Source: Xenophilus azovorans DSM 13620
Lineage (GTDB): Bacteria > Pseudomonadota > Gammaproteobacteria > Burkholderiales > Burkholderiaceae_C
Direction: 5' to 3'
DNA length: 43,363 bases
Assembly (NCBI RefSeq): GCF_000745855.1
Contig: NZ_JQKD01000043.1
Location: forward strand, 1-43,363
How positions within the stretch are numbered: position 1 is the stretch's first letter; every line of letters starts with the position of its first letter. The notes under the pieces were generated by a model. The model saw only the letters and a list, made by a program, of their open reading frames with translations, was not told the DNA's origin and did not search any database. The position numbers were made by a program, and so were the translations under genes. Below are positions 8,960 through 32,868 of this stretch, piece after piece.

Positions 8960-9877
8960 TCACAAAAAAAAGTTAGATCCCGGCCCGAACAGCGCGGCGA
9001 TTCTGTCTCTGAACCAACGATGACGGGGGTCCTTGTCATAGCGACGGTGCCAATGTTGCTGGATCGGAAATTGAGGGATGTCGTAGGGCGGAGGGACGAG
9101 TTCAACCTGACCAAGCTTTGCAAAGTGTGCGCCGACTGCGGTCGGGACTGTCGCGACAAGATCCGTGGCGGCAACAATTGCTGGAAGTGTGAGATAGTGC
9201 GTGGTGCGCATGCGAATTCTCCGGACAACGCCGCGACGATCCAGAAAATTGTCCACGAGTTCCTGACTCCTGATCGGTGTATCGACCAGCACGTGGTCGA
9301 GTTCCGAGTACCTGGACTTGCTCATTTGTTGAGCCGCAGGATGTCCTTTGCGCAGCATGCATGAGAAGCCGTGCATCCTCAGCCGCTGCTTGAAAAAGCG
9401 GTTGCTTTTGAGGTCAGGAAAATAGCCGAGCGCAATGTCCACCTGCCCCGACTCCATAGCCTGTTCCAGACTTTGCGGATCGTACGAAGAGGTGCGCATT
9501 GAGGCATGAGGTGTTAGCTGCTGCAAGGCTTGGATGAGCCCTGGCGCAAAGATCATTTCGGCCACGTCTGGCATCGCTAGGCAAAACTCCGTGGTCGTCT
9601 CGGCCGGCGTGAATCGCGGGGCGTCCAGTACGTTCTCATAGACGCGCTGCAGGATGTGGCGAGCCTCCTTTGCTGCTGCCACACCGCGTGGAGTCGGCTG
9701 CATACCTTCCGGAGTGCGAACGAACATCGGGTCGTCGAAGTGCTTACGAAGGCGCCCGAGCGCCGTACTGAGGCCCGGCTGACTCATGCCTAAACGCAGC
9801 GCGGCGCGGGTAACGCTGCGGCAGTCGTCCAAAGCGACCAAAAGAGACAGCAGATTCAAGTCGAAGGTCTTGGTCAT
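8960..9877 (-). CDS. LysR-family transcriptional regulator, NahR/NodD-like subgroup
   Basis: A 305-aa regulator with the winged HTH at residues ~5-65 (FDLNLLSLLVALDD, SVTRAALRLGMSQPGLSTALGRLRKHF) and a C-terminal effector-binding domain. The C-terminal WHRRYDKDP.HRWFR pattern matches the WHAKYxxDxxxxWLR of NahR, suggesting an aromatic-acid inducer. ATG 9877 is chosen because the HTH begins there; an ATG at 9979 would add 34 atypical residues. It is divergent from the P450 operon across 134 nt and is the obvious candidate activator of it. Its last few codons lie next to an IS remnant, so the extreme C-terminus may be altered. Confidence 0.88.
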   Translation of the reverse strand: MTKTFDLNLLSLLVALDDCRSVTRAALRLGMSQPGLSTALGRLRKHFDDPMFVRTPEGMQPTPRGVAAAKEARHILQRVYENVLDAPRFTPAETTTEFCLAMPDVAEMIFAPGLIQALQQLTPHASMRTSSYDPQSLEQAMESGQVDIALGYFPDLKSNRFFKQRLRMHGFSCMLRKGHPAAQQMSKSRYSELDHVLVDTPIRSQELVDNFLDRRGVVRRIRMRTTHYLTLPAIVAATDLVATVPTAVGAHFAKLGQVELVPPPYDIPQFPIQQHWHRRYDKDPRHRWFRDRIAALFGPGSNFFL

Positions 9878-10011: not shown

Positions 10012-11250
10012 ATGAGTACAACTGAAATGATGGCCAGACCCACTGCGCCCGGTAGCAGGTTCGACCTATTCAACCTGCCGGACGCGTATTACCGCGACCC
10101 GGCCCCGTTCTATAAAGCCTTGCGTGATAACGAACCGCTTCTCTGGAACAGCGATGGCTCGGTATTGCTGACGCGCTACGACGACGTCAAGGCGGTGTGG
10201 CGCGACCTGAGCGGTCGGGTGAACCGCGCCGAAGCCTATGCGAAGAAGTTCGGCGAGGGGCCGCTTCTTGAGCATCACACCTCGTCGATGCTGTTCCGCG
10301 ACCCGCCCGATCACGACCGGTTGCGCGACATCGTCAATCCGTTCTTCACGCCGTCATCGATAGAGCGGCTGCGCACGGCGGTTCGAGAGATCGTCGAACG
10401 GCTCATCGAGGAGGTGCGCGAGAAGCGCGAGATCGACTTCGTCGCCGAGTTCTCGTCACGTATCCCGATCCAAGTGATCTGCGACATCTTCGGTGTGCCG
10501 CGCAGCGACGGCCCATTGATCCGGGACCTCGGCGCGCAGGTACTGTTTCCCCTCAATCCAGCCGTCAGCGCCGAAGCGATCGCCGCCGGCCACGAAGCGA
10601 CTCGCAAGTTCAAAGACTACCTGTCCGAGCACTTTAACTATTGGCGCCGACAGCCAGTGGAAGACATGCCGACGAACATTATCAGTGCACTGGTCGCCGC
10701 CGAGAAGCGCGGCAACCCGCCAATCAGTGAAGTGGAAATGGCACACATGTGCATCCTCGTTCTCAATGGAGGGCACGAGACCACGACCAACCTGATCGGG
10801 CTTTCTACTCTGGCATTGATGAAGCATCCCGACCAAATGGCCCTGCTGGCCAAGGAGCCGTCCGTCATTGGCCCGGGGGTGGAGGAGTGCCTGCGCTACA
10901 CCACGCCGCTGCAGTTGCAGGGGCGGCGCACGACGCAAGAGGTACAGGTGCCTTCTGGGACGATCCCTGCCGACACTGAAGTCATCTTCGCGCAAGTGTC
11001 CGCCAATCGCGACGAGCGTGTGTTCGCCGATCCGGACCGCCTGCAACTCACGCGGCAACCCAACGCCCACTTGGCCTTCGGTGCGGGTATCCATGTGTGC
11101 CTCGGCCGACCGCTCGCCCGCATGGAGGCGGCCGAGGCATTGCCGGCGCTCGCACGGCACTTCCCGAGCATGCAGCTCATCGATGAGCCCGTCTTCGCCC
11201 GAAGCGCGCGGTTCCGCGGCATCCAGTCGATGCGCGTGCGACTCTATTGA
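10012..11250 (+). CDS. Cytochrome P450 monooxygenase (class I)
   Basis: A 412-aa soluble bacterial P450. Landmarks are the I-helix oxygen-activating motif GGHETT, the ExxR pair in EECLRYTTP, and the heme-binding loop HLAFGAGIHVCLGRPLAR with the axial Cys. AGGAG at 10001-10005 supports the start. Ferredoxin reductase and [2Fe-2S] ferredoxin genes follow directly, giving a complete three-component system. Downstream FAH and gentisate-dioxygenase-like genes suggest that the product is a gentisate-type diphenol, so a likely reaction is 5-hydroxylation of a substituted salicylate. P450 systems doing this on 3,6-dichlorosalicylate have, as I recall, been described in a dicamba degrader. The actual substrate is inference. 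Confidence 0.92.
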   Translation: MSTTEMMARPTAPGSRFDLFNLPDAYYRDPAPFYKALRDNEPLLWNSDGSVLLTRYDDVKAVWRDLSGRVNRAEAYAKKFGEGPLLEHHTSSMLFRDPPDHDRLRDIVNPFFTPSSIERLRTAVREIVERLIEEVREKREIDFVAEFSSRIPIQVICDIFGVPRSDGPLIRDLGAQVLFPLNPAVSAEAIAAGHEATRKFKDYLSEHFNYWRRQPVEDMPTNIISALVAAEKRGNPPISEVEMAHMCILVLNGGHETTTNLIGLSTLALMKHPDQMALLAKEPSVIGPGVEECLRYTTPLQLQGRRTTQEVQVPSGTIPADTEVIFAQVSANRDERVFADPDRLQLTRQPNAHLAFGAGIHVCLGRPLARMEAAEALPALARHFPSMQLIDEPVFARSARFRGIQSMRVRLY

Positions 11251-11257
11251 CTGCGCC

Positions 11258-12496
11258 ATGAGTGCCGGGATAGTGGTGGTGGGCGCAGGGCAGGCAGCCT
11301 GCCAGTTGATCGCATCGCTGCGGCAGCTGGGCCATGCCGAGCCGCTGACCCTCGTGGGGGCCGAGCCTTATTTGCCGTACCAGCGGCCGCCTTTGAGCAA
11401 GGACTGTTTGCGCCGCGGAGCGACCTTGGCGGATCTGTTGCTGCGGCCCACGTCCTTCTACGATTCGCAGCGGTGCCGGCAGATTCTCGGCCGCCGCGCT
11501 ATCGAACTGGACCGCGCCGCGCGCGTTCTGCGACTCGACGATGGTCAGGCTATCGAATATGAGCACTTGGTGCTGGCGACGGGTGCGCGCGCGCGTCGCT
11601 GGCCGGGCTTGGCCGACGTTTCGCCACACGTGTTCACACTGAGGAGTTGGGACGATGCGCAGGCCCTCGGCGAGCGGCTCACGAACGTGCGGCGACTTGC
11701 CGTGCTCGGTGCGGGTTATGTTGGACTGGAGGTGGCGGCATCAGCGGCGCAGCGGGGCATTGAGGTAGCTGTCTTCGAAGCCGCTCCACGCGTGCTCCAG
11801 CGGTCGGTCGGGACAGCCATGTCTGTGGCCGTGCAGCGGCTGCACGCGCAGCATGGCGTGCGGCTGTGCCTGGGGGCCACCGTGCGGGCCGTCGAGGTCT
11901 CCGCTGCGACCAATGCCAGGAACCCTGTCCGTTTGACGACCACCGACGAAAGCTTCACCGCCGATGCGCTCGTGGTGGGTATAGGCGCCGCGCCGCGCAT
12001 TGAACTGGCGCAGCAGGCAGGAATTGCATGTGGGCAAGGAATACGCATCGACGCTGCGTGCCGTACGAGTGATCCGCATGTCTGGGCCATCGGTGACTGC
12101 ACCGAGCAGGTTCTTGGTGATGGCGAGCCTCCGATAAGGCTGGAATCCGTGCAAAACGCGACGGATCAGGCCAAGTGCGCTGCCGCTGTATTGGCCGGCA
12201 AGCCGATTCCCCCAGCCCCGGTGCCATGGTTCTGGTCGGATCAGTTCGGCTGCCGGATCCAAGTAGCAGGCCGCTCGGCTGCCGGCGACGAGATCATTCT
12301 TCGATCCGTCGCAGAAAAGCGGTTGGCGTTTGCGGCTTGGCACCTTCGGGATGGGCGCGTCACCGCGGTCGAGACACTTGACGCGCCGGAAGACTTCATG
12401 GCCGCTCGACAGCTCATCCGCAGCGGCCGTTTCATCGAACGCGCGACCCTGTGCGACGACCGTGTGTCGCTGCGCGAGCTCGTTACTCAAACTTGA
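11258..12496 (+). CDS. NADH:ferredoxin reductase, putidaredoxin reductase type
   Basis: A 412-aa FAD flavoprotein that passes electrons from NAD(P)H to the ferredoxin encoded next door. It has an N-terminal FAD-binding GxGxxA motif (VVGAGQAACQL), YLPYQRPPLSK typical of the PdR/rhodocoxin reductase group, a second nucleotide-binding GAGYVGLEVA, VWAIGDCTE near the flavin, and a C-terminal reductase domain starting around WFWSDQFG. ATG 11258 is 7 nt after the P450 stop, so the two are co-transcribed. Confidence 0.92.
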   Translation: MSAGIVVVGAGQAACQLIASLRQLGHAEPLTLVGAEPYLPYQRPPLSKDCLRRGATLADLLLRPTSFYDSQRCRQILGRRAIELDRAARVLRLDDGQAIEYEHLVLATGARARRWPGLADVSPHVFTLRSWDDAQALGERLTNVRRLAVLGAGYVGLEVAASAAQRGIEVAVFEAAPRVLQRSVGTAMSVAVQRLHAQHGVRLCLGATVRAVEVSAATNARNPVRLTTTDESFTADALVVGIGAAPRIELAQQAGIACGQGIRIDAACRTSDPHVWAIGDCTEQVLGDGEPPIRLESVQNATDQAKCAAAVLAGKPIPPAPVPWFWSDQFGCRIQVAGRSAAGDEIILRSVAEKRLAFAAWHLRDGRVTAVETLDAPEDFMAARQLIRSGRFIERATLCDDRVSLRELVTQT

Positions 12497-12514
12497 CAAG
12501 GATCATCCACTCAC

Positions 12515-12835
12515 ATGACGACTCTTTACTTTCAAACGGCCGAGGGCGAGACCATTGAGTTGCAGGCCAAGGACGGCGCTTCGGTGATGGAGGCTGCCGT
12601 AGCCGCGAATGTGCCGGGCATCGACGCCGAGTGCGGCGGCGCCTGCGCCTGCGCCACCTGCCATGTCTACGTTGACGAAGCGTGGACCGAACGTCTGCCG
12701 GCCAAAACAGAACTTGAAATCAAGATGCTTGATTTCGCGGTCATGGTCAAGCCCACCAGCCGTCTGAGCTGTCGTCTCATCGTTGGCCCCGAGATCGACG
12801 GCCTTTCGATGTCTATTCCTGAATCGCAACATTGA
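12515..12835 (+). CDS. [2Fe-2S] ferredoxin, putidaredoxin/adrenodoxin type
   Basis: A 106-aa electron carrier. Four Cys ligands are visible: C-x5-C-x2-C in [11 protein letters not shown] and a fourth in RLSCRL, the spacing of the putidaredoxin group rather than the plant type. It sits between the reductase and the FAH-family hydrolase, completing the P450 electron-transfer chain. Confidence 0.93.
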
Positions 12836-12845
12836 CACACATCCC

Positions 12846-13715
12846 ATGAAGATTTGCCGCTTCGATAACGACCGCCTGGGCTTGGTAGACGGGGACACAG
12901 TGCGCGACGTCACTGCCGCGCTCGACGTTCTGCCAAATCACCGCTATCCGCTGCCCATTTTCGATCCCCTGATCGCGCACCTGCCCGAGGTACTCCAAGC
13001 AATTCGCCGAATCGCCCCGTCGTCGCCCACGCTGCCGCTCGCGGGGCGCCGGCTGCTGGCTCCGGTTGCGAATCCCGGGAAAGTCATCGCGGCGCCCGTC
13101 AACTACAAAAAGCATCTCGAAGAAGCCCGCGAGCAGGCCGAGATCCACCACAACGGCCAGGTCGCCGAAATCCAGAAGATCGGACTCTTCCTCAAGGCGA
13201 CAAGCTCCGTTGTGGGGCCGGGTCACGGCATCGAGATCCAGCATCCTGACCGCCGAAACGACCACGAGGCCGAACTCGTCGCTGTCATTGGCAAGGCCGG
13301 ACGCAACATTCCGCGCGAGCACGCGTTCGATCACATTGCGGCCTACATGATCGGCCTGGACATGACAGTTCGCGGCCCGCAGGAGCGCAGTCTGCGCAAG
13401 TCCATCGACACGTATTCCGTGGTGGGGCCCTGGCTCGTCACTGCTGACGAGATTGACGACCCGCAGGCGCTCGATTTCTGGCTCACTGTCCAAGGCGAGC
13501 CGCGCCAAAAGGCCAACACGCGCGATCTCGTGCTGGACATCCCAGCGTTGATCGAAATGGCCTCGTCCTATTACACGTTGCAACCAGGTGATCTGCTGTT
13601 CACCGGCACGCCCGAAGGCGTTGGGCCGGTGGTGCACGGTGACGTGATCACGGTCGATATCGAAGGCATCGGTCGCATGACGGTCGACGTCCGCAACGCC
13701 AGGAGAGACACGTGA
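12846..13715 (+). CDS. Fumarylacetoacetate hydrolase family protein, probable maleylpyruvate-type hydrolase
   Basis: A 289-aa FAH-fold hydrolase that cleaves a C-C bond in a diketo acid. It has VIAAPVNYKKHL, the metal-ligand region NDHEAELVAVIGK, AYMIGLDMTVRGPQ, and the family hallmark LQPGDLLFTGTPEGVGPV. Gentisate pathways use FAH proteins either as fumarylpyruvate hydrolase after isomerisation or as maleylpyruvate hydrolase acting directly. No maleylpyruvate isomerase gene lies in this operon, while LeuCD-type hydratase genes do, so direct hydrolysis to pyruvate plus maleate or citraconate is the better prediction. Its stop overlaps the next start (GTGA). Confidence 0.85.
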   Translation: MKICRFDNDRLGLVDGDTVRDVTAALDVLPNHRYPLPIFDPLIAHLPEVLQAIRRIAPSSPTLPLAGRRLLAPVANPGKVIAAPVNYKKHLEEAREQAEIHHNGQVAEIQKIGLFLKATSSVVGPGHGIEIQHPDRRNDHEAELVAVIGKAGRNIPREHAFDHIAAYMIGLDMTVRGPQERSLRKSIDTYSVVGPWLVTADEIDDPQALDFWLTVQGEPRQKANTRDLVLDIPALIEMASSYYTLQPGDLLFTGTPEGVGPVVHGDVITVDIEGIGRMTVDVRNARRDT

Positions 13716-14788
13716 ACACACTAAACCTCCCGACGTCTGCTTATGCAGGCGGCGCAGCAACAGCCGACGTCGCTACCCAGCGCGAGGCCTTCTACGAACG
13801 CATCGGACGGGCCCATTGCACGCCGCTGTGGGAAGTTCTGCATGACATCGTCACCAAGGAGCCGATCACGCCGTGCTTGCCCCACCTGTGGCAATGGAAG
13901 CAAGTTTGGCCGTGGCTGCAGGAAAGCGGCCAGTTGATTTCAGCCCTGGAAGCGGAACGCCGCGTACTCGTGCTGGAAAACCCAGGCCTTCGCGGAAAAA
14001 CGCGCATCACGCACAGCCTCTATGCCGGTCTGCAGTTCATCCTACCGGGCGAGATCGCACCGTCGCACCGTCACTCGCAATCGGCCCTGCGTTTTATCAT
14101 GCACGGCGCGGGTGCCTACACGTCCGTGGATGGCGAGCGCGTCACGATGAACGTAGGCGATTTTGTGATCACGCCATCGTGGACATTCCACGAGCACGGC
14201 AACGACAGTGGCGAGCCGATGGTATGGATGGATGGACTCGATCTGCCTATTGTAGAGTTGCTTGATGCCCAGTTCCGTGAGGACGGCCCGCGCACCACCG
14301 TGCAGGCGGTTGACCGCGAGGCGGGCCTCACGCTGTCCCGCTTCGGCAACACGATGAAGCCTGTAGGCTATAAGAGCCGGACACGCACGTCACCGCTGTT
14401 CTGGTATCCCTACGAACGCACGCGAGGGGCGTTGGAGACGCTGCGCCGCAGCGAAGCACCGCACCCGTGCTGGGGTCACAAGTTGCAATACACCAACCCG
14501 GTGACGGGCGACTGGGCGATGCCCACCATTGGCACCTTTATGCAGCTGCTGCCCGCAGGCTTCGTGGGCGAATCCTATCGCGCCACGGACGCCACGGTCT
14601 ATACCGTAGTGGAGGGCTCTGGCCGCTGTGTGGCCGGTGACAAGGTGCTGACGTTCGGACCGAAGGACGTGTTCGTCTGCCCCTCCTGGCTGCCTTACCG
14701 GCTGGAGGCATCGGCCGATACCGTGCTCTTTAGTTTCTCGGATCGTCCCGTCCAGGAGGCGCTGGACCTCTGGCGCGAGCGGTTTTGA
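13712..14788 (+). CDS. Gentisate 1,2-dioxygenase-like bicupin
   Basis: A 358-aa Fe(II) ring-cleavage dioxygenase of the gentisate/salicylate 1,2-dioxygenase cupin family. The N-terminal cupin has two His ligands in PSHRHSQSALRF and the third in TFHEHGND. A second cupin domain (GTFMQLLPAGF, GSGRCVAGDKVL) lacks an obvious metal set, as usual. GTG 13712 overlaps the upstream stop and is preceded by AGGAGAG. It is a distant paralogue of nagI at 38734 in this same window. It should open a gentisate-type ring between C1 and C2, giving (methyl)maleylpyruvate for the upstream hydrolase. Confidence 0.88.
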   Translation: MNTLNLPTSAYAGGAATADVATQREAFYERIGRAHCTPLWEVLHDIVTKEPITPCLPHLWQWKQVWPWLQESGQLISALEAERRVLVLENPGLRGKTRITHSLYAGLQFILPGEIAPSHRHSQSALRFIMHGAGAYTSVDGERVTMNVGDFVITPSWTFHEHGNDSGEPMVWMDGLDLPIVELLDAQFREDGPRTTVQAVDREAGLTLSRFGNTMKPVGYKSRTRTSPLFWYPYERTRGALETLRRSEAPHPCWGHKLQYTNPVTGDWAMPTIGTFMQLLPAGFVGESYRATDATVYTVVEGSGRCVAGDKVLTFGPKDVFVCPSWLPYRLEASADTVLFSFSDRPVQEALDLWRERF

Positions 14789-14831
14789 TTCTTGATCGAA
14801 CCACCAACACAAACACACCAGGAGACACCAA

Positions 14832-16010
14832 ATGACTTTCACGATGACTTCGGTCAAGACCGTGCTGCTATGCGCCAGCCTGGCCGTCGGCCCCTCCCTG
14901 CAAGCACAAACTCCCATCAAGATCGGCTTCCTGGCCGAACTGTCGGGCCCACAAAGTGCGCTGGGGCAAGACCAATATGACGGATTCATGATGGTCGTGC
15001 AGCGCAACGGCGGGAAGCTTGGCGGCGTGCCGGTGGAGTTGTTCAAGGAGGATTCGCAACTCAAACCCGACGTGGCGGTGCAGGCCACGCGCAAGCTGAT
15101 CGATAAAGACAAGGTGTCGATCATCACCGGCATCACCTTCTCGAACATCATGATGGCCGTCCACAAACCCATCACCGAAAAGGGCGTCTTCTTGGTCGGC
15201 TCCAATGCGGGACCAGCGCCCATCGCTGGCGCGCAGTGTTCGCCCTATCAATTCATAGTCTCGTGGCAGAACGATATGTTGTCGGAGGTGGTGGGCAAAT
15301 ATGCCGCCGACAAGGGCTACAAGCGGGTCGTCGCGCTGGCACCTAACTACCAGGCCGGCAAGGACTACATCGCCGGCTTCAAGCGCTTTTACAAATCTGA
15401 ACTTGCCGACGAAGTCTATACGCCGCTGAACCAGCTGGACTTCTCGGCCGAACTCACGAAGCTTGAAGCTATTCGGCCCGATGCCGTGTTCGTGTTCTAC
15501 CCAGGCGGACTCGGCGTCAACTTCGTACGCCAGTACCAACAGGCGGGCCTCATGGGCAAGATACCTTTGCTGTCCACGGGCACCACCGACGGGGCAACTC
15601 TGCCAGCGCTGCGCGACACTGCGCTCGGCGCGATCTCCGGCTCGTTCTGGGGGCCCGATTTCGACAACGCCGAAAGCCGGCGCTTTGTCGAGGAGTTCGA
15701 GGCCAGCTACAAGCGCATCCCATCGCAGTACGCGGCGCAAAGCTACGACGCCGCCATGCTGCTCGACGCGGCAATCGCCAAGGTGCGAGGCGACGTAGCC
15801 GATAAACCGGCATTCATGGCGGCCCTCAAGAACGCGGATTTCAAATCAGTACGAGGAGCGTTTCGGTTCAACAACAACAACTTCCCGATCCAGGACATAC
15901 CCGTTTTCGAGATCGCGAAGGATGCAAAAGGCCGCGTCAGCATGCGGACGCTGACGTTTCCCTTGCGCAATCACAAGGATGCGTACCACCAGCAGTGCCC
16001 ACTGAAGTAG
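14832..16010 (+). CDS. Periplasmic substrate-binding protein of a LIV-type ABC transporter
   Basis: A 392-aa type I periplasmic binding protein, LivK-like. It has a Sec signal peptide of about 25 aa ending SLQAQ, then IKIGFLAELSGPQSALGQDQYDGFMM and a second lobe with RVVALAPNYQAGKDY and FSAELTKLEAIRPDAVFVF. AGGAGACACC precedes the start. In Burkholderiales, binding proteins of this family inside aromatic operons often take up aromatic or organic acids. Here it heads a five-gene transporter embedded between ring-cleavage and CoA-dependent steps, so the ligand is probably the growth substrate. Confidence 0.9.
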   Translation: MTFTMTSVKTVLLCASLAVGPSLQAQTPIKIGFLAELSGPQSALGQDQYDGFMMVVQRNGGKLGGVPVELFKEDSQLKPDVAVQATRKLIDKDKVSIITGITFSNIMMAVHKPITEKGVFLVGSNAGPAPIAGAQCSPYQFIVSWQNDMLSEVVGKYAADKGYKRVVALAPNYQAGKDYIAGFKRFYKSELADEVYTPLNQLDFSAELTKLEAIRPDAVFVFYPGGLGVNFVRQYQQAGLMGKIPLLSTGTTDGATLPALRDTALGAISGSFWGPDFDNAESRRFVEEFEASYKRIPSQYAAQSYDAAMLLDAAIAKVRGDVADKPAFMAALKNADFKSVRGAFRFNNNNFPIQDIPVFEIAKDAKGRVSMRTLTFPLRNHKDAYHQQCPLK

Positions 16011-16020
16011 GAGTGATGCG

Positions 16021-16941
16021 ATGAGTGTAAACCTGCTGCTCGCGCAGTTGCTCAATGGGTTGCAGTACGGCGTCCTGCTCTTCCTGCTGGCTGCCGGACT
16101 CACGCTCGTGTTCGGAATCATGAGTTTCGTTAATTTGGCCCACGGTTCGCTTTACATGTTGGGCGCCTACTTCTCTGCGACCGTATACAACGCGACGGGC
16201 TCGTTCGCGCTGGGTCTGATCGCAGGGTTGGCCGGCACACTTCTCCTGGGCCTTGTGCTCGAGTGGGTGGCCGTCTCGCGGCTCTATCTGCGTGACCACC
16301 TAGACCATGTTCTGGCCACCTTCGGCCTGGTACTCTTCTTCAACGAAATCGTGCAGATCATCTGGGGCGCACAACCCTATTTCACGCAGGTCCCCGAAAC
16401 ACTCGACCGTACGATCAACCTGTTCGGTTTTTCCTATCCGGCCTATCGCTTCGCAATCATTGTGGTTGGCGTTTCGGTTGCGGTCGGCGCCTACCTTCTG
16501 ATCCACAAGACGCGAATCGGCATGTTGATCCGCGCCGGCACAGTGAACCCCAAAATGGTCGCGGCGCTCGGCGTGAACATCAAGCTGCTCAACGCCATGC
16601 TGTTCGGACTCGGCGCCATGCTCGCGGGTCTAGCGGGTGTGATGGCCGGCCCGATCCTGTCCGTGCAGTCCGGCATGGGCGAGCCGGTGCTGATAACGAC
16701 ACTTGTCGTGATCGTCATCGGGGGGATTGGATCGGTCGGCGGCGCATTCTATTCGGCACTCATCGTGGGCACAGTCGACACACTCGGGCGCGCGTTCCTG
16801 CCAAGCGTTTTGCGCCTCGTGACCGAGCGCTCTTTCGCTGACGCCGCAGGGCCAGCACTTGCATCGATGCTCATTTACGTGCTCATGGCCGCAGTGCTCG
16901 CCTGGCGCCCGCAAGGCCTCTTCCCTTCCAAGGGGGGCTGA
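16021..16941 (+). CDS. LIV-type ABC transporter permease, LivH-like
   Basis: A 306-aa inner-membrane permease with about eight hydrophobic segments. It has LivH features: an N-terminal LLAQLLNGLQYGVLLFLLAAGLT-like region, the FVNLAHGSLYMLGAY motif, and VIVIGGIGSVGGAF near the end. It pairs with the LivM-like permease that starts 2 nt after its stop, forming the transmembrane channel of the importer. Confidence 0.9.
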   Translation: MSVNLLLAQLLNGLQYGVLLFLLAAGLTLVFGIMSFVNLAHGSLYMLGAYFSATVYNATGSFALGLIAGLAGTLLLGLVLEWVAVSRLYLRDHLDHVLATFGLVLFFNEIVQIIWGAQPYFTQVPETLDRTINLFGFSYPAYRFAIIVVGVSVAVGAYLLIHKTRIGMLIRAGTVNPKMVAALGVNIKLLNAMLFGLGAMLAGLAGVMAGPILSVQSGMGEPVLITTLVVIVIGGIGSVGGAFYSALIVGTVDTLGRAFLPSVLRLVTERSFADAAGPALASMLIYVLMAAVLAWRPQGLFPSKGG

Positions 16942-16943
16942 CC

Positions 16944-17960
16944 ATGTTGCAACATCCTCTGGCTCGACCGAGCGCACTGGTGCCGCTCGTCCTTTTCGCA
17001 GTGCTGGCCCTGGTGCCCTTCATCGCGCAGGCGATCGGCGAGCCCTTCTATATTGCGCTGTTCGCGCGGATCATCATCTATGCAATCGCGGCAAGCGCGC
17101 TGAACCTCGTGCTGGGCTATGGCGGGCTGGTCAGCTTCGGCCATGCGCTCTTCTTTGGCATAGGCGCATACGGCGTCGCGCTGCCGGTCTTTCACGGAAT
17201 CGACAACGGCTGGGTCCACTTGATCCTCGTGTTTGGAGTATGCGGTGTTGCCGCGGCGGTGACCGGCGCGATAAGCTTGCGCACCTCCGGCATAGCGTTC
17301 ATCATGATCACGCTTGCCTTTGCTCAGATGGGCTTCTTCCTCTTCGTGAGCCTGAAACGCTACGGCGGTGATGACGGCCTCTCGATAGCCCAAGCCAGTC
17401 GATTTGGGCCGCTGAACCTTGGCGACACCGGCGCTGTATACGCTTGCGCCTTCTTGGTGCTGGCACTTGCGACCTGGTGCCTCGCTCAATTGCGCGCAGC
17501 ACCCTTCGGAATGGTGCTGCGCGCCGCGCGACAAAACCCTCGTCGCGTCGCCACTGTCGGACTGCCGGTCTCGCAGTATCGGCTCACGGCTTACGTGATG
17601 TCCGGGATGCTGTGCGGCTTGGCAGGTTTCCTGCTTGCCAACCTGAACGCCTTCGCTTCGCCGAGCACGATGGCATGGACCGTGTCGGGCGAACTCATAG
17701 TCATCGTCGTGCTGGGCGGCATGGGCACCGTCTTCGGCCCTTTGCTCGGTGCTTTCGTGCTGCTAGGGCTTGAGGAGATCATCAAGGGGTACACCGACCA
17801 CTCCATGGTCGTCCTGGGCCCCATGATCCTGTTGATTGCCCTGGCAGGCAAATCCGGCATCATCGGCCTGCTGCAGAAGCTCGACCACGCCGCCGCGCGG
17901 CCAGCCCCCGTACCTGCGAAACCCACAAGGGCGACGCACGCAAACGGCGGGGAGGGTTGA
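16944..17960 (+). CDS. LIV-type ABC transporter permease, LivM-like
   Basis: A 338-aa polytopic membrane protein. LivM-type motifs are ALNLVLGYGGLVSFGHALFFGIGAY, RTSGIAFIMITLAFAQM, and VVLGGMGTVFGPLLGAF. The C-terminus ends with a hydrophilic Pro/Ala-rich tail. It sits between LivH-like and LivG-like genes with almost no spacing. Confidence 0.9.
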   Translation: MLQHPLARPSALVPLVLFAVLALVPFIAQAIGEPFYIALFARIIIYAIAASALNLVLGYGGLVSFGHALFFGIGAYGVALPVFHGIDNGWVHLILVFGVCGVAAAVTGAISLRTSGIAFIMITLAFAQMGFFLFVSLKRYGGDDGLSIAQASRFGPLNLGDTGAVYACAFLVLALATWCLAQLRAAPFGMVLRAARQNPRRVATVGLPVSQYRLTAYVMSGMLCGLAGFLLANLNAFASPSTMAWTVSGELIVIVVLGGMGTVFGPLLGAFVLLGLEEIIKGYTDHSMVVLGPMILLIALAGKSGIIGLLQKLDHAAARPAPVPAKPTRATHANGGEG

Positions 17961-17961
17961 C

Positions 17962-18711
17962 ATGGCCACCATGCTTCAGACCGAGTCTCTGGTCAAGCGC
18001 TACGGCGGCCTGCTGGTGACAGACGCCGTCTCTCTGGACGTCGAGGAGGGCGAGATCCACGCGGTGATCGGCCCCAACGGCGCGGGCAAGACCACCCTGA
18101 TCAACCAACTCTCTGGCGAACTGGCCTCGAACAGCGGACGCATCGTGTTTGGAGGCTTCGACATCACCAACCTGCCCTGCCACGAGCGAGCCCGCGCGGG
18201 ACTGGTGCGCTCCTATCAGATCACTTCGGTCTTCGAGGAGTTCACCGTGCTCGAGAACACGGTGCTTTCCGCCCTCGGCGCGCGCGAGCACGCGTTCCGG
18301 TTGTGGCGACCCATGCTGTCGCGCACCGAGGCGTGCGGCGCTGCGGAAGAAGCGCTCGAATCCGCTGGTCTCGGTGACCGCGCCAATGTCTGTGCAGGCG
18401 ACCTGGGCTACGGCGAGCGCCGTCAGCTCGAGCTGGCGATGAGCCTCGCAGCCCGTCCAAAGCTGTTGTTGCTCGACGAACCGATGGCGGGCATGAGCCC
18501 GCAGGAATCGTCTTCAGTGATTGCGTTGCTGAAGCGGTTCAAGCGACGCTACTCGATTCTTCTCATCGAGCACGACATGGACGCGGTCTTCGTACTCGCG
18601 GATCGCATCACCGTGCTCGTCTACGGCAAGGTCATGTTCACTGGGAGCCCTGCCGAGATTCGCTGCCATCCCGAGGTGCGCGCGGTGTATCTCGGCGAGG
18701 AAGCGGTTTGA
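17962..18711 (+). CDS. LIV-type ABC transporter ATPase, LivG-like
   Basis: A 249-aa nucleotide-binding protein. It has a canonical Walker A (GPNGAGKTT), Q-loop, signature region LGYGERRQLELAM, Walker B LLLLDEPMAGMSP and switch His (IEHDMD). ATG 17962 follows the LivM stop directly. It energises import together with the LivF-like protein encoded next. Confidence 0.91.
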   Translation: MATMLQTESLVKRYGGLLVTDAVSLDVEEGEIHAVIGPNGAGKTTLINQLSGELASNSGRIVFGGFDITNLPCHERARAGLVRSYQITSVFEEFTVLENTVLSALGAREHAFRLWRPMLSRTEACGAAEEALESAGLGDRANVCAGDLGYGERRQLELAMSLAARPKLLLLDEPMAGMSPQESSSVIALLKRFKRRYSILLIEHDMDAVFVLADRITVLVYGKVMFTGSPAEIRCHPEVRAVYLGEEAV

Positions 18712-18728
18712 CGGCGCGGGACAACGAT

Positions 18729-19445
18729 ATGAGCACTTTCTTCTCCGTCCTTGGGCTGCAGGCCTCCTACGGCCACGCCCAAGCCCTCTTTGACATCTCT
18801 TTTGACGTACGAAAGGGGCAGGTAGTCACGCTGCTCGGCCGCAACGGCATGGGTCGGTCGACGACAGTCAAGTGCATCTTCGGGCTGTTGCCCGTCTCGG
18901 CCGGCACGGTGTCGATTGACGGCATTCGACTCGACCGACTGCCCATCCACCGCGTGGCGCGCAAAGGTCTCGCATTGGTGCCCGAAGGCCGGCAGGTCTT
19001 CCCGAACCTCACTGTAGAGGAGAACCTCGTCGCGACAGCCCGAGTCGGTGAGTCGGCGCCCTTGCCACATTGGACGCTCAGCCGCGTCTACGACCTCTTT
19101 CCCCGGCTCCGGGAGCGCCGGCGGAACCTTGCCTCGCAGCTATCGGGCGGCGAACAGCAGATGCTCGCGATTGGCCGCGCGCTGATGACCAACCCACGCC
19201 TGCTCGTGCTTGACGAGGCCACCGAGGGCCTGGCACCTCTCATCCGCCAAGAGATCTGGCGTGCGCTCGGCGAATTGAAGGCCAATGGACTCTCGCAGAT
19301 CGTTATCGATAAGAACGTCGGTGCACTGCTTGATCTGGCAGATCACCACTACGTGATTCAAAAAGGTTGCGTTGTTTGGCAGGGCGGGTCCGAGGCACTT
19401 CGCCGCACGCCTGATGTCATCCATCAATACCTGGGAGTGAGCTGA
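18729..19445 (+). CDS. LIV-type ABC transporter ATPase, LivF-like, with Lys-to-Arg in Walker A
   Basis: A 238-aa nucleotide-binding protein. The signature LSGGEQQMLAIGRALM and Walker B LLVLDEATEGLAP are intact. Walker A reads GRNGMGRST, with Arg where the family has the nucleotide-binding Lys, and the region around the switch His reads IVIDKNVGALL. If the substitution is real, this half-site may bind or hydrolyse ATP poorly and the transporter would rely on the LivG-like subunit. ATG 18729 is preferred over a TTG at 18708. Confidence 0.88.
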   Translation: MSTFFSVLGLQASYGHAQALFDISFDVRKGQVVTLLGRNGMGRSTTVKCIFGLLPVSAGTVSIDGIRLDRLPIHRVARKGLALVPEGRQVFPNLTVEENLVATARVGESAPLPHWTLSRVYDLFPRLRERRRNLASQLSGGEQQMLAIGRALMTNPRLLVLDEATEGLAPLIRQEIWRALGELKANGLSQIVIDKNVGALLDLADHHYVIQKGCVVWQGGSEALRRTPDVIHQYLGVS

Positions 19446-19524
19446 TGAGTGCGACCATGAAGACTGCGCTCCCCGCTTGCACATCCACGGAGTTTCGACT
19501 CGGGATGGGTTCTAAGGAGCAATC

Positions 19525-20847
19525 ATGAATACACACCGTAAAGACAGCGCACGGTCAAACCTTTCGAAGGATGCTGAGCGAACTGACGGTTCGGATGACA
19601 CAACCATGAAGAAAAAATCGACCTCTCAGGAGAACGATGAGAGCAAACCTACGTCGGATGTAATGCCGCTTGCGGGCGTCAAGGTACTTGAACTCGGCTC
19701 GCTGGTAGCGGGGCCTTACGCCAGCGCGCTGCTGGCTCAGTTCGGCGCGGAAGTGATCAAGATCGAGCCGCCGAAGGACGGGGATCCGTTGCGCAAATGG
19801 CGCAAGCTCCACGAGGGTACCTCGCTGTGGTGGTACACGCAAAGTCGCAACAAGAAGTCGGTCACGCTCGACCTCAAGCGCGACGAGGCGCGCGAGATCG
19901 TACGTCGCCTGGCCGGCGAAGTCGACATCGTGATCGAGAATTTCCGTCCCGGGACGCTGGAGAAGTGGGGGCTGGGCTGGGAGCAATTGTCGGCCCTCAA
20001 TCCGCAACTTGTCATGGTCCGCATCTCCGGCTACGGGCAATCGGGCCCGTACAGCCAGCGACCGGGCTTTGCGGCCATCGCCGAGTGCATGGGCGGGCTG
20101 CGTCACGTGACCGGATTTGCCGATCGTCCGCCCGTACGGGTGGGTGTAAGCTTGGGCGACACGCTGGCCTCGCTGTACGGCACGATTGGTGCCCTGGTGG
20201 CGATGCACCATCTCAAGGCCAACGCGGGCAAGGGTCAGTTCATCGATGTCGCGTTGTACGAGTCGGTATTCGCGGTGATGGAAAGCCTGATTCCAGAGTA
20301 CGCGGAGTTCGGCTTCGTGCGGGAGCGGTCCGGCGCCAGTCTCCCGGGCATTTCACCATCGAATACCTACCGTTGCGGCGATGGCCACTACGTGGTTATC
20401 GCAGGCAACGGCGACGCCATCTTTAAGCGGTTGATGCACGCGATCGGGCGCGACGATCTCGGCGCTGACCCCGCGTTGGTGCGTAATGACGGCCGTGTCA
20501 GACACAATGATCGGCTGGATGCCGCTATATCCGATTGGACCGGACTGCACCCGCTTGACGAGGTCTTGAAGGTCCTGGAGGCGGCCGAAGTGCCCAGCGG
20601 GCGCATCTACACCGCAGCCGACATCGCGGAAGACCCGCACTTCCACGCGCGCGACATGATCGAGCGCCACGCGCTACCCGACAGCACACCAATCGACTTT
20701 CCGGGCATCGTGCCCAAGTTGAGCGCGACTCCCGGGCGCACGAAATGGGTCGGCCCCGAGCTCGGCGCGCACACGCAGGAAGTGCTGGCCTCCCTGGGCA
20801 TTGATGCCGACGAGCTCGCCCGACTGCGCGCCGATGGCGTGGTTTGA
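19525..20847 (+). CDS. CaiB/BaiF family CoA-transferase, candidate succinyl-CoA:(R)-citramalate CoA-transferase
   Basis: A 440-aa class III CoA-transferase. The conserved part starts at about residue 47 (MPLAGVKVLELGSLVAGPYA) and includes FGAEVIKIEPP, RNKKSVTLDLK, SGYGQSGPY and SNTYRCGDGHYVVIAGNGDAIF. Glu246 (VALYESVF) stands where many members have the catalytic Asp. The first ~46 residues are charged and low-complexity, unusual for the family; AAGGAGCAATC supports the long start, but ATG 19663 could be the real one. The lyase and LeuCD genes downstream fit a role in making (R)-citramalyl-CoA; the Chloroflexus enzyme for this reaction belongs to the same family. Confidence 0.8.
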   Translation: MNTHRKDSARSNLSKDAERTDGSDDTTMKKKSTSQENDESKPTSDVMPLAGVKVLELGSLVAGPYASALLAQFGAEVIKIEPPKDGDPLRKWRKLHEGTSLWWYTQSRNKKSVTLDLKRDEAREIVRRLAGEVDIVIENFRPGTLEKWGLGWEQLSALNPQLVMVRISGYGQSGPYSQRPGFAAIAECMGGLRHVTGFADRPPVRVGVSLGDTLASLYGTIGALVAMHHLKANAGKGQFIDVALYESVFAVMESLIPEYAEFGFVRERSGASLPGISPSNTYRCGDGHYVVIAGNGDAIFKRLMHAIGRDDLGADPALVRNDGRVRHNDRLDAAISDWTGLHPLDEVLKVLEAAEVPSGRIYTAADIAEDPHFHARDMIERHALPDSTPIDFPGIVPKLSATPGRTKWVGPELGAHTQEVLASLGIDADELARLRADGVV

Positions 20848-20857
20848 GGGGCAACTC

Positions 20858-21868
20858 ATGCAAAAGGCTAACGGCCAGCGGCTGTACATCCAGGAAGTTT
20901 CTGTGCGCGACGGATTCCAGATCGAGTCTCGCTTCGTGCCCACCGAACAGAAAATTGACCTGATCAATGGCTTGAGCCGCACAGGACTGGCCAAGATAGA
21001 GGTCACATCGTTCACCTCGCCCAAGGCCATCCCGGCGCTGGCGGATGCCGAAGCCGTGATGCGAGGGATCGAACGGATTCCCGGCGTTGAATACGCCGCA
21101 CTGGTGCCCAACATTCGCGGCGCTGAGCGCGCGCTCGACTGCGGCGTCGACGAACTGAATCTCGTAATGTCTGCGAGTGAGACACACAACGCCGCCAACC
21201 TGCGGATGACCCCTGCGCAGTCGTTGGCGCAGTTTGCCGAAATCGTGAGGCTGGTGGACGGCCGTAAGCAGGTCAACGCCTCGTTGTCCACGGCCTTCGG
21301 CTGTCCGTTCGAAGGTGACGTGCCGGACGCGGTCCTGCTGGCGCTCGTAGAGCGCATCGCAGGGCTGGGCATCGCGCGCGTGACGCTGTGCGATACGACC
21401 GGCATGGCCCATCCGGGGCAGGTGGAGCGCCTCTGCCGGGCGGTGAAGACTGGTTGGCCGCAACTGACCTTGACGGCGCATTTTCATGACACCCGTGCCA
21501 TGGGACTGGCGAATGCGTTGGCGGCGCTCGAGGCCGGCATCGACCGCTTCGATGCCTCCCTCGGCGGGCTGGGGGGCTGTCCCTTCGCGCCGGGCGCCAG
21601 CGGGAACGTCTGCACCGAAGACTTGGTTCACATGTTCGAGGCCATGGGCTATCGCACCGGCGTCAATCTGGAAGCGCTGCTGGCGCAGGCGCGCCGCATG
21701 CCTGAGATCGTCGGCCACGATGTGCCCGGGCAGGTCATGAAGGCGGGTCCATCGAGTCGGCGGTATCCCGTACCGGATGGCGTGCACTCACGCGAACCGC
21801 AGCAGCGCCTGGCCGGCGTGGGTTGCCTTGCCGGAAGCCCGGCCAGTCCGGTCCTGAGGGGAACGTAA
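20858..21868 (+). CDS. HMG-CoA lyase-family enzyme, candidate (R)-citramalyl-CoA lyase
   Basis: A 336-aa TIM-barrel lyase of the HMG-CoA lyase/DRE-TIM family. Key parts are EVSVRDGFQ with catalytic Arg/Asp, [10 protein letters not shown] with metal-binding His residues, and the hallmark [16 protein letters not shown] with the active-site Cys. It would cleave a branched beta-hydroxyacyl-CoA to acetyl-CoA plus an oxo acid. The Chloroflexus (R)-citramalyl-CoA lyase belongs to this family, and the genes around it supply that substrate; ordinary HMG-CoA lyase for leucine breakdown is the alternative. ATG 20858 has GAGGGG upstream (ATG 20834 also in frame). The last ~40 residues are Pro/Arg/Ser-rich and unlike the family. 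The stop overlaps the next start (TAATG). Confidence 0.83.
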
Positions 21869-23277
21869 TGGCCGCCGCGACACTTTTCGAAAAGCTGTGG
21901 CAACGGCATGTGGTGCACGAGCCCGAGGCCGGCCCTCCGCTGCTGTACATGGACCGCCATCTGGTCTACGAGGTCACCAGCCCGCAGGCGTTTGAGGGGT
22001 TGCGCATGGGCAAGCGCAGGCTGTGGCGTCCGCAAACGGTACTGGCGACCGCGGACCACAACGTGCCGACGACATCGCGCTCCGTGGGCATCATAGATCC
22101 CTTGTCGCGTATCCAGGTCGAACAGCTCAGCCGCAACTGCAAGGAGTTCGGTGTCACCGAGTTCGGACTCTCGGACCCCCGTCAGGGCATCATCCATGTC
22201 GTCGGTCCGGAACAGGGCGCAACCTTGCCGGGAATGACCGTTGTCGCCGGCGACTCGCATACCAGCACGCATGGCGCCTTCGCCGCCCTGGCCTTTGGTG
22301 TCGGTACTTCCGAGGTCGAGCATGTGCTCGCGACGCAGTGCCTGTCCGTCAACCCGATGAAGCCCATGCTCGTGCGCATTGAGGGAGCACTGGCGCCTGG
22401 CGTAACGGCCAAGGACTTGATCTTGGACGTGATCGGCCGCATCGGCACGGCAGGCGGAACCGGCTACGCCATCGAGTTTGGCGGTGGCGCGGTTCGCGCC
22501 TTGTCCATGGAAGGCCGAATGACTTTGTGCAACATGGCGATCGAAGCAGGCGCTCGCGTTGGATTGGTCGCGGTCGATCAAAAAACGATCGACTACCTGA
22601 AAGGGCGTCCGTACGCGCCGCGCGGCGAGCGATGGGAGCAGGCGGTGGCGTACTGGCGCACACTGGTCAGCGACGAGGGTGCGCACTTCGACAGAACGCT
22701 TGAGATCGATGCGGCTCTTGTGCAACCCATGGTGACTTGGGGCACATCGCCCGAAATGGTGCAGCCGATCGGCGGCCAGGTGCCCGATCCTGCGCGTGAA
22801 CCGGACCCTGTCAAGCGCTCCGGAATGGCCAATGCGCTGGCGTACATGGCAATCGAGCCGGGCATGCCAATCAAGGCCATTCAGCCGGACAAGGTGTTCA
22901 TCGGATCGTGCACCAATGCCCGCATCGAGGATCTGCGCGCTGCGGCCGCCGTGCTGAAGGGCGGACATATTGCTCCCACGATCAAGCTAGCCCTCGCGGT
23001 CCCGGGCTCGGGGTTGGTCAAGGCGCAGGCCGAAGCCGAAGGCCTTGACCGCGTGTTCACCGACGCGGGTTTCGAATGGCGTGAACCGGGCTGTTCGATG
23101 TGCTTGGGTATGAACGAAGACCGGCTGGCGCCCGGAGAGCGCTGTGCCTCCACCTCGAACCGCAATTTCGAGGGCCGTCAGGGGGCGGGAGGGCGTAGCC
23201 ATCTCGTGAGTCCGGCAATGGCGGCGGCGGCCGCAGTTGCGGGCCACTTCGTTGATGTCCGTAAGGAGTTCAGCTGA
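21868..23277 (+). CDS. LeuC-like aconitase-superfamily hydratase, large subunit
   Basis: A 469-aa [4Fe-4S] hydratase large subunit like 3-isopropylmalate dehydratase LeuC. It has [38 protein letters not shown] and [18 protein letters not shown] with cluster Cys residues, and [12 protein letters not shown]. LeuCD-type enzymes hydrate citraconate to (R)-citramalate, and related two-subunit enzymes serve as maleate hydratase in gentisate degraders. Its place at the end of a catabolic operon, translationally coupled on both sides, argues for such a role rather than leucine synthesis, for which no leuB or leuA is nearby. Confidence 0.88.
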
Positions 23278-23921
23278 TGGAACCTTTTACGTTTCTCGAC
23301 GGCATCGTGGTGCCGCTGAATCGCGCCAACGTCGACACGGACGCCATCATCCCGAAGCAGTTCATGAAGTCGATACGACGCACAGGCTTCGGGGGCAATC
23401 TGTTCGACGAATGGCGCTATTTGGACAAGGGCGAGCCCGGGCAGGATTGCGCCGCGCGGCCGACGAACCCGGCTTTCGTGCTGAACCAGCCCCGCTACCA
23501 AGGTTCCTCCATCCTGTTGGCGCGAGCGAACTTCGGCTGCGGCTCCAGCCGCGAACACGCGCCGTGGGCGCTGCACGACTATGGCATTCGTGCGCTCATC
23601 GCCCCCAGCTTTGCCGACATCTTCTACGGCAACTGCTTGAAGAACGGCATGTTGCCCATCGTGCTGCCCGAGGTTGAGGTGCAGTATCTGTTCGAACAGG
23701 TAAAGAGCCAGCCTGGTTACCGCCTGCGCATCAACCTCGAGAGACAGTCTATCGAAGCACCGATCGGCCCTGCTCTCGGCTTCGAGTTCGATCCGTTTCG
23801 CAAACGCTGTCTGCTCAACGGCATCGACGACATCAGCCTGACGCTGGAGCATGACGCGGAGATTCGCCGCTACGAGGCTAGGCGGCAATTGGCGGAGCCA
23901 TGGGTATTTGGAGGGGCTTGA
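23277..23921 (+). CDS. LeuD-like hydratase, small subunit
   Basis: A 214-aa small subunit carrying the swivel domain. Typical LeuD stretches are [40 protein letters not shown] with the substrate-recognition loop, and [24 protein letters not shown] overlaps the LeuC-like stop (TGATG at 23275-23279), so the two subunits are coupled. It is the last intact gene of the P450 operon; only a broken receptor gene follows. Confidence 0.9.
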
Positions 23922-26837: not shown

Positions 26838-27824
26838 ATGGAACTGGTAGTAGAACCCCTCAATTTGCATCTGAACGCGGAGACCGGCAGCACCCTGCTT
26901 GACGTGCTCAGGTCCAACGAGGTCCCCATTTCTTATAGCTGCATGTCGGGCCGCTGCGGCACTTGCCGTTGCCGTGTGATTGCCGGCCATCTTCGCGATA
27001 ACGGCCCCGAGACAGGGCGCCCGCAGGCAGGAAAGGGAACCTACGTTCTGGCCTGTCAGGCGGTACTGATCGAAAACTGCACGATTGAGATCCCTGAATC
27101 TGACGAGATCGTGGTTCACCCGGCGCGCATCGTCAAGGGGACGGTCACAGCGATAGACGAGGCCACCCATGACATCCGGCGCCTGCGCATCAAACTGGCC
27201 AAGCCGCTTGAGTTCAGCCCCGGCCAGTACGCAACGGTGCAGTTTACGCCCGAATGCGTCCGCCCCTATTCGATGGCCGGGCTGCCTGGCGATGCAGAAA
27301 TGGAGTTTCAGATTCGCGAGGTTCCGGGCGGGCACGTCAGCAACTACGTTTTCAATGAACTGTCCGTAGGCGCTTCGGTGCGGATCAGCGGCCCCCTCGG
27401 AACGGCCTATCTGCGGCGCACGCACACGGGCCCCATGCTTTGTGTGGGGGGTGGAACCGGTCTGGCGCCCGTCCTTTCGATCATTCGAGGCGCACTGGAG
27501 GGAGGGATGAGCAACCCCATCCATCTGTACTTCGGTGTGCGGAGCGAGCAGGACATCTATGACGAGGAACGCCTTCACGCATTGGCTGCAAGGTTTCCGA
27601 ATCTCAAGGTGAATGTCGTTGTTGCAACAGGCCCTGCCGGCCCTGGTCATCGATCCGGCCTGGTCACCGATCTGATCGAACGTGACCTGCCCAATTTGGC
27701 GGGATGGCGCGCCTACCTGTGTGGCGCTCCGGCCATGGTAGAGGCCCTGAACCTGCTCGTTGCTCGCCTGGGCATAGCACCCGGGCATATCCATGCCGAT
27801 GCGTTCTATCCCAGCGGTGTCTGA
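26838..27824 (+). CDS. nagAa: NagAa, ferredoxin reductase of naphthalene dioxygenase and salicylate 5-hydroxylase
   Basis: A 328-aa iron-sulfur flavoprotein that takes electrons from NAD(P)H and reduces NagAb. An N-terminal plant-type [2Fe-2S] domain carries C-x4-C-x2-C ([12 protein letters not shown]) and a fourth Cys in LACQA; the FAD domain includes [11 protein letters not shown], and the NAD domain [12 protein letters not shown] and [11 protein letters not shown]. In strain U2 this reductase serves both the dioxygenase and the salicylate hydroxylase. First gene of the operon, start supported by its match to the known N-terminus. Confidence 0.95.
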
Positions 27825-27869
27825 GCGAAGGCGCCATGCGAGCCCAATTTAATCCAAGGAAACCATGCC

Positions 27870-29132: not shown

Positions 29133-29134
29133 AC

Positions 29135-29620: not shown

Positions 29621-29631
29621 GAACGAATCCA

Positions 29632-29946: not shown

Positions 29947-30034
29947 AACTCTTTGCAGGAGGAAAGCCAAATCCGGAAATCACCCCACCCAACCCAATCA
30001 CTACCCGTTTTCAAACAAGAGGAGACAAGCAATT

Positions 30035-31378: not shown

Positions 31379-31392
31379 TCCAGGAGTCAACC

Positions 31393-31977: not shown

Positions 31978-32040
31978 GCCCTGGGGATGCCTGCCTGGAT
32001 GGCGGGCATTCGTGATTATTTTTAACAGAAATTTATTGCC

Positions 32041-32820: not shown

Positions 32821-32868
32821 ATTTTCAATCAAATCAGATTTTTCAACCCCATTCCCAGGAGACAACCC

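Follow-up and report, generated by a model that had tools for sequence, protein, structure and literature searches.

We describe a 14-gene operon in a 43,363-nucleotide stretch of DNA from Xenophilus azovorans DSM 13620 (contig NZ_JQKD01000043.1, our C39, of a 6.5-Mb genome; the whole stretch is termed the window below), which probably constitutes a second, methyl-tolerant gentisate branch that would convert methylsalicylates to two pyruvate and acetyl-CoA. The original prediction, made from the letters alone, had read the row as a P450-gentisate-citramalate pathway. Comparison with relatives supports this reading through the affinities of the FAH-family hydrolase, a distinct LeuC, the placement of the HMGL-family lyase apart from the human, Brucella, P. 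aeruginosa and B. subtilis 3-hydroxy-3-methylglutaryl-CoA (HMG-CoA) lyases and the recurrence of the modules in other bacteria. From these features, together with the gene content, order and tight spacing of the row, we infer the substrate and all of the enzyme activities. The best clue to the substrate, unused in the original prediction, is the complete nag operon next door.

The 14 genes run in one direction at window positions 10012-23921 (Table 1), and profile scans and translations bore out the named genes, their order and their coordinates; for the importer, the profile scan (Pfam/NCBIfam) covered the binding protein, and the other four genes were identified from translations. The 13 junctions, described at the outset as mostly overlaps or very short gaps, measure 7, 18, 10, -4, 43, 10, 2, 1, 17, 79, 10, -1 and -1 bp and thus range from -4 to 79 bp. 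These values refer to preferred starts, which were chosen by inspection over mechanical TTG starts for the reductase (11258), the FAH gene (12846), the lyase (20858) and LeuC (21868). A consensus scan of both strands for terminator-like sites at 9800-24300 revealed no excess (7 versus 10.5 +/- 3.8 in shuffles). A search for genomes with the same gene order, as originally suggested, retrieved near-identical operons in two other strains and partial sets in distant bacteria. The copy of the operon in Cupriavidus (Ralstonia) sp. U2, whose contig bears a plasmid title, is 99.99% identical; that in Extensimonas sp. H3M7-6 is 99.74-100% identical. A chance neighbourhood of the genes was rejected, since the operon is shared with these strains and its parts recur in distant taxa.

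In the proposed route, the nag upper pathway would turn 1- or 2-methylnaphthalene into 3- or 4-methylsalicylate, and the LIV-type importer might additionally take up methylsalicylate-type acids. The P450, served by its reductase and ferredoxin, would hydroxylate methylsalicylate at C5, the gentisate 1,2-dioxygenase (GDO) would open the ring of the resulting methylgentisate to methylmaleylpyruvate, and the FAH enzyme would hydrolyse the latter directly to pyruvate and citraconate. The ring would be cut between C1 and C2 and the product hydrolysed between C5 and C6, which leaves a methyl group from either C3 or C4 on the maleate part; citraconate would therefore arise from both isomers. LeuCD, a type of enzyme that produces the R hand, would hydrate citraconate to (R)-citramalate, the CaiB enzyme would form (R)-citramalyl-CoA with a CoA donor (likely succinyl-CoA), and the HMGL-type lyase would release acetyl-CoA and pyruvate, which would balance the carbon (C8 = 3 + 3 + 2). 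The last two activities, (R)-citramalate CoA-transferase and (R)-citramalyl-CoA lyase (EC 2.8.3.20 and 4.1.3.46), are known from other settings (Chloroflexus), and the likeness drawn here concerns the enzyme families and the proposed reactions. Plain gentisate would be routed through NagI-NagL-NagK. As to stereochemistry, the configuration of HMG-CoA that matches S-citramalyl is R at C3, and PA2011 is an (S)-HMG-CoA lyase (PMC6689899); the R-citramalyl ester is therefore the expected substrate of an HMGL-type lyase. A separate R-route appears to be needed, since the S-specific cluster of Pseudomonas aeruginosa conferred on P. putida no use of (R)-citramalate or citraconate, neither of which P. 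putida KT2440 uses by itself (PMC9875883). The initial conversion of methylnaphthalene to methylsalicylate has been described in other strains (PMC8006333).

According to their translations, the plain-salicylate genes NagG/H, NagI, NagL and NagK are encoded on the same segment as the operon. Since nag already deals with plain gentisate, 3-/4-methylsalicylate derived from methylnaphthalene is the most likely substrate of the second branch. The same enzymes could also act on an unsubstituted substrate, with salicylate passing via gentisate and maleylpyruvate to maleate, LeuCD forming D-malate, and CaiB and the lyase yielding acetyl-CoA and glyoxylate. One locus (L141), which has LeuCD near FAH-GDO and no CaiB or HMGL gene in its stretch, fits such a use and resembles the direct-hydrolysis route of P. 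alcaligenes. We nevertheless consider it unlikely, because the segment already provides for plain salicylate, because Pusillimonas and the Sagittula type also have NagK/NagL beside CaiB-HMGL and FAH, and because HMGL-type lyases generally act on tertiary alcohols. We know of no CaiB-HMGL pair in the route of P. alcaligenes NCIMB 9867. That gentisate/xylenol route (HbzF, HbzIJ, XlnD/E), in part covered in PMC5658364, shares with the operon a GDO, an FAH-type maleylpyruvate hydrolase and a LeuCD-type hydratase. It uses XlnD where the operon has the P450, and the likeness is one of description.

The FAH protein, originally taken for a maleylpyruvate-type hydrolase, keeps this assignment. Its top PDB match is the maleylpyruvate hydrolase 6jvv (213 bits), and it is 62% identical to a Sagittula protein listed as HbzF (PMC11705938) and 30% identical to NagK of the window. 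The Sagittula protein is itself 57% identical to HbzF (PMC11705938). In the FAH tree the window protein is split from NagK at 100/100 and joins the remaining gentisate-linked copies on a branch with 94/90 and no star. By sequence, the protein is maleylpyruvate-hydrolase-like, of the HbzF rather than the NagK kind, as judged via relatives of HbzF. Among 300 genomes of the order, nine including X. azovorans have a match to it; ten stretches from the other eight yielded no CaiB-HMGL, and one of them holds GDO and LeuCD. The neighbouring dioxygenase reaches 501.3 bits on TIGR02272, whereas NagI, 34% identical to it, scores 262 and stays below the cut-off of 442.1.

The P450 carries the heme-loop, ExxR and I-helix motifs, and together with ferredoxin and reductase it adjoins gentisate genes, as would a P450 salicylate 5-hydroxylase system. 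It is 51-53% identical to P450s of Sagittula, Actibacterium and Neorhizobium, which lie in clusters with gentisate genes, and of Pseudonocardia, where the gene lies near an FAH gene and a cupin that resembles GDO (272 bits, cut-off 442). The Pseudonocardia plasmid locus (L101, 7670-13165) comprises P450 (53%), the GDO-like cupin, VanB-type reductase, FAH and aromatic-acid MFS genes, with no CaiB-HMGL annotated there, and is possibly an actinobacterial salicylate P450 route. A search of 369 genomes of the class (E <= 1e-60) returned ten matches, namely the window P450 and nine at 34-40% identity. The best hint that the P450 product is of the gentisate type comes from Antarctobacter and Pusillimonas T2, where 3-hydroxybenzoate 6-monooxygenase (3HB6MO), a gentisate maker, occupies the place of the P450 in otherwise similar clusters. 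The same replacement bears on a variant of the scheme in which the ring substituent or the P450 reaction differs (chloro- or ethylsalicylates, O-demethylation or methyl hydroxylation). A precedent for this variant is the P450 system DsmABC, which, likened here by description, hydroxylates a salicylate as proposed for the operon but acts on a chlorinated one, 3,6-dichlorosalicylate (PMC9404685). The variant seems improbable, if not negligibly so: the lyase step calls for a methyl carbinol, citramalyl being HMG minus one CH2, and no dehalogenase gene was noticed in the window translations, where no dedicated search was made.

The LeuC of the window forms a starred clade (100/99) with four LeuCs whose genes adjoin HMGL-type ones. 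This clade excludes both 28 LeuCs of relatives and the other LeuC of the X. azovorans genome, which lies on contig C19 with LeuD beside it; a rerun with two more rows again set the lyase-linked clade apart. Three of the four other clade members also adjoin CaiB. The fourth (L008) has the order HMGL-LeuC-LeuD with no CaiB match in 8.7 kb, 1.6 kb of that upstream, and was counted as linked in the trees all the same. One genome (G430) carries both kinds of LeuC. A plain leucine-biosynthesis enzyme was therefore rejected, given the separate clade and the other copy on C19, and the pair is predicted to be a LeuCD-type maleate/citraconate hydratase distinct from leucine LeuCD. The Sphingobium LeuCs were likely recruited separately, as judged in a second LeuC tree that was built without alphaproteobacterial leucine LeuC. 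Peribacillus has a shorter LeuCD form (420 and 165 amino acids) in the order CaiB-LeuC-LeuD-HMGL.

The CaiB protein stays under the cut-off of each of the seven NCBIfam models listed. The lyase retains the catalytic residues checked, namely Arg41, Asp42, Glu72, Asp204, His233, His235, Cys266 and Asn275 (human HMG-CoA lyase numbering). In the lyase tree the human, Brucella and P. aeruginosa HMG-CoA lyases and a second X. azovorans copy on contig C73 form a starred clade (100/97), joined by the B. subtilis enzyme (1ydo) at 92/82. The window lyase falls into a different clade (27 rows, 97/96, starred), of which 6nds, an entry named HMG-CoA lyase, is also a member; at 44% identity, the Sagittula lyase represents a separate lineage. 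Tyr167 of the human enzyme, presumably involved in binding, is conserved in 1ydn, 1ydo and 2ftp and replaced by Ser in the window lyase, and the position is non-Tyr in 88 of 88 window-type rows (not all beside CaiB) and in 3 of 3 Sagittula-type rows. As a clean marker it was weakened, because 6nds has Thr and a probable HMG-CoA lyase of X. azovorans itself (L092) has Ala; a scan of five reading frames around L092 recognised one glycosyltransferase and no leucine-breakdown gene. Eight close relatives of the lyase (L011, L013, L015-L019, L060; 73-76%) have no CaiB match beside them; the L011 and L015 genes adjoin a large hybrid histidine kinase, and L015 also lies near a chemoreceptor. Further HMGL/CaiB-like pairs occur in the X. 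azovorans genome (L188-L190), L188 beside an MmgE/PrpD gene and L190 beside LIV-like genes.

The modules of the operon recur separately and in combination. A survey of 80 loci with the nearest relatives of the window lyase found a CaiB gene (at least 50% identity) on the same strand in 65, LeuCD in five and gentisate-type genes in four, the near-identical loci L006 and L007 providing two of each of the latter counts. Nine of the 80, all Pseudomonas-type and related, have CaiB-HMGL beside an itaconate/methylsuccinate cluster, as does the window's segment. The order MFS-CaiB-HMGL-LeuC-LeuD appears in two further genomes (G414 and G430); no gentisate gene was recognised within these stretches. 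A CaiB-HMGL-LeuCD block is found in Sphingobium AntQ-1, TKS and MI1205, Cupriavidus necator N-1, three Peribacillus plasmids, Alkalibacillus and a metagenome-assembled genome (L038), and thus spans Beta- and Alphaproteobacteria and Firmicutes. Gentisate genes accompany CaiB and HMGL, along with P450, FAH, GDO and nah-type genes, in Sagittula, Actibacterium and Neorhizobium. Antarctobacter has the order FAH-CaiB-HMGL-3HB6MO-GDO, and Pusillimonas T2 has CaiB-HMGL-FAH-NagK-NagL-3HB6MO-LIV with no GDO within the stretch, an arrangement that locus L010 resembles without FAH. Among plasmids, the Sagittula lyase (E <= 1e-60) matched 11 records, which in stretches of 6 to 15 kb per side, less at record ends, showed gentisate genes in four, LeuCD in six and CaiB only in one unannotated record. 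The window lyase (E <= 1e-80) matched 23; of nine viewed, eight have CaiB, one has LeuCD (C. necator N-1) and none has a recognised gentisate gene.

LeuCD-linked lyases belong to three lineages: that of the window, that of Sphingobium (96/91, starred) and that of Peribacillus, a long branch of unsure place. The LeuCD link requires four changes on the lyase tree, of which starred branches force at least three, and these may be gains or losses. Lyases of three lineages and two LeuCD lengths indicate that the combination was probably assembled more than once. We lean towards regarding CaiB-HMGL-LeuCD as an unrecognised recurrent catabolic cassette for citraconate and (R)-citramalate. By joining it to aromatic pathways, bacteria would be able to mineralise rings that bear methyl groups (methylnaphthalenes, cresols/xylenols) via gentisate. 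In Sphingobium AntQ-1 (L192) and the three Peribacillus plasmids (L201-L203) the block lies near RibB-like and LLM flavin-dependent oxidoreductase genes, in Peribacillus also near riboflavin kinase, a setting that perhaps reflects another ring-degrading route ending in citraconate. In Sphingobium TKS and MI1205 (L194, L199) the four genes follow P450, Gfo/Idh/MocA and NTF2-like genes, with an acetyl-CoA acetyltransferase nearby.

Several observations weigh against the methylsalicylate route. The P450 reaction is its weakest link, and P450 orthologs are too few for the substrate to be deduced from them, since a search of 398 genomes of the phylum (E <= 1e-95) matched one, X. azovorans itself. 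CaiB-HMGL is common without LeuCD or gentisate genes (most of the 80 loci) and alone is not diagnostic of citramalate, LeuCD was not found in the viewed stretches of the Sagittula, Actibacterium and Neorhizobium P450 clusters, and the literature consulted contains no report that strain U2 grows on methylnaphthalene. Moreover, the window lyase exceeds the NCBI HMG-CoA lyase cut-off (NF004283, 330 > 246), and the clade that contains it includes 6nds, which its depositors named an HMG-CoA lyase. The last two points would suit a CaiB-HMGL pair that has nothing to do with the aromatic genes and breaks down 3-hydroxy-3-methylglutarate or a different acid. So would the succinate-HMG CoA-transferase 9br7, the third PDB match of CaiB (192.6 bits; best 4ed9, 240.7 bits), and the TctC-like gene in 17 of the 80 loci, with TctABC in L195 and L198. 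We judge this explanation very unlikely: LeuCD would have no part in such a route, yet lyases of three lineages are found linked to it, and the C73 lyase of the same genome scores higher on the HMG-CoA lyase model (437 versus 330 bits) and falls in the tree with those of human and P. aeruginosa.

Beyond the operon, U2 matches the window at 1149-17148 (99.98%) and 10864-31858 (98.3%), and Extensimonas H3M7-6 matches it at 1-15893 (99.99%). By this comparison, the segment carrying the operon is evidently a mobile naphthalene-degradation segment. An IS4-family transposase gene lies at 188-1396. It may mark the left border, as the U2 contig, and with it the U2 match, starts within the gene (at 1149) and as Extensimonas has the gene too. 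At 2560-8722 there is an itaconate/methylsuccinate-type cluster (acyl-CoA dehydrogenase, CaiB, MmgE/PrpD, CitE-like) with a citryl-CoA-lyase-like gene and a crotonase; the cluster accompanies the segment in both U2 and Extensimonas. Compared with nine Pseudomonas-type clusters, its transferase, MmgE/PrpD and dehydrogenase are 61-85% and its CitE 47-51% identical. Such clusters are C5-dicarboxylate systems (PMC12290011), and this one may handle S-C5 acids. Downstream of the operon follow an MCP gene, a LysR gene (25817-26722), to whose product the divergent LysR-type regulator is 37% identical, and the nag operon.

Table 1. The operon and flanking features in window coordinates, with proposed functions and supporting scores
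Feature	Position	Strand	Basis
LysR-type regulator, divergent from operon	8960..9877	-	likely real start near 9877 by inspection
Cytochrome P450, proposed methylsalicylate 5-hydroxylase	10012..11250	+	PF00067 110.6 bits
Ferredoxin reductase	11258..12496	+	profile scans
2Fe-2S ferredoxin	12515..12835	+	profile scans
FAH-family hydrolase, proposed maleylpyruvate/methylmaleylpyruvate hydrolase (HbzF-like)	12846..13715	+	FAA_hydrolase 179 bits; 6jvv; tree
Gentisate 1,2-dioxygenase, second GDO	13712..14788	+	TIGR02272 501.3 bits (cut-off 442.1)
Five-gene LIV-type ABC importer (substrate-binding protein, two permeases, two ATPases), proposed aromatic-acid importer	14832..19445	+	binding protein: Peripla_BP_6
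CaiB-family CoA-transferase, proposed succinyl-CoA:(R)-citramalate CoA-transferase	19525..20847	+	PF02515 (CoA_transf_3) 416.5 bits
HMGL-family lyase, proposed (R)-citramalyl-CoA lyase	20858..21868	+	PF00682 158.6 bits; NF004283 330 (cut-off 246); residues; tree
LeuC-type subunit, proposed citraconate hydratase large subunit	21868..23277	+	TIGR00170 748.1 (cut-off 560.25); tree
LeuD-type subunit	23277..23921	+	TIGR00171 264 (cut-off 116.25)
nag operon (naphthalene via salicylate to gentisate; NagI/NagK/NagL)	26838..42247	+	translations; organisation as in PMC10146988

The operon as such, the kinds of enzymes and the chemistry are already known. The breakdown of alkylgentisates, with its alkylmaleate and alkylmalate steps, was reportedly described by Hopper in 1971. 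The P450-to-dioxygenase part has been published for Delftia tsuruhatensis ULwDis3 and plasmid pWWU2 of U2, which share a region of about 33 kb (99-100% identical) with LysR, P450, reductase, ferredoxin, "FPH2", GDO2 and ABC genes followed by nag (PMC10146988). That work labels the FAH protein as fumarylpyruvate hydrolase and reads the genes as serving gentisate in general, whereas the protein appears maleylpyruvate-hydrolase-like here; its main text makes no mention of CoA transferase, hydroxymethylglutaryl or isopropylmalate. A plasmid-borne polycyclic aromatic hydrocarbon cluster of Sagittula sp. MA-2 shares the P450, HbzF-like FAH, CoA-transferase, HMG-CoA-lyase-like, GDO, ferredoxin, nah-type, NagK and NagL genes, and its P450, transferase and lyase were classed as unrelated to known aromatic-degrading enzymes (PMC11705938). 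It differs in having no LeuCD in the 31 kb viewed and a lyase of a different lineage. The itaconate/methylsuccinate cluster ich-mcd-mmgE-ict-ccl likewise employs a CoA-transferase and then a C-C lyase to convert a C5 acid to acetyl-CoA and pyruvate, but with S-stereochemistry and a CitE-type lyase (PMC12290011). The initial view that no operon joining these parts had been described thus calls for qualification: parts are published, and the citramalate reading was not found in the accessible portions of PMC10146988 and PMC11705938. What seems new are roles for the transferase, lyase and LeuCD, to which these portions give none, and a reason for the second gentisate branch. In a literature search with subscription papers largely outside its scope, we found no report that links citramalyl-CoA lyase with gentisate, that describes one operon combining a P450 and direct hydrolysis with a LeuCD hydratase and the CoA-dependent cleavage of citramalate or that notes the recurrence of the cassette.

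Ralstonia/Cupriavidus sp. U2 is a classic strain for naphthalene degradation via gentisate, and the operon lies beside its nag genes. If true, the proposed route would explain why such strains have two gentisate branches and would supply genes for the breakdown of methylsalicylate by way of gentisate; a review leads methylsalicylate to methylcatechol in the passages found and makes no mention of methylgentisate (PMC8006333). It would also correct the labels "fumarylpyruvate hydrolase" and "HMG-CoA lyase" in published clusters. Finally, a portable cassette for the use of citraconate and (R)-citramalate would be named, and the alkylmaleate and alkylmalate steps of the 1971 chemistry would be provided with genes.

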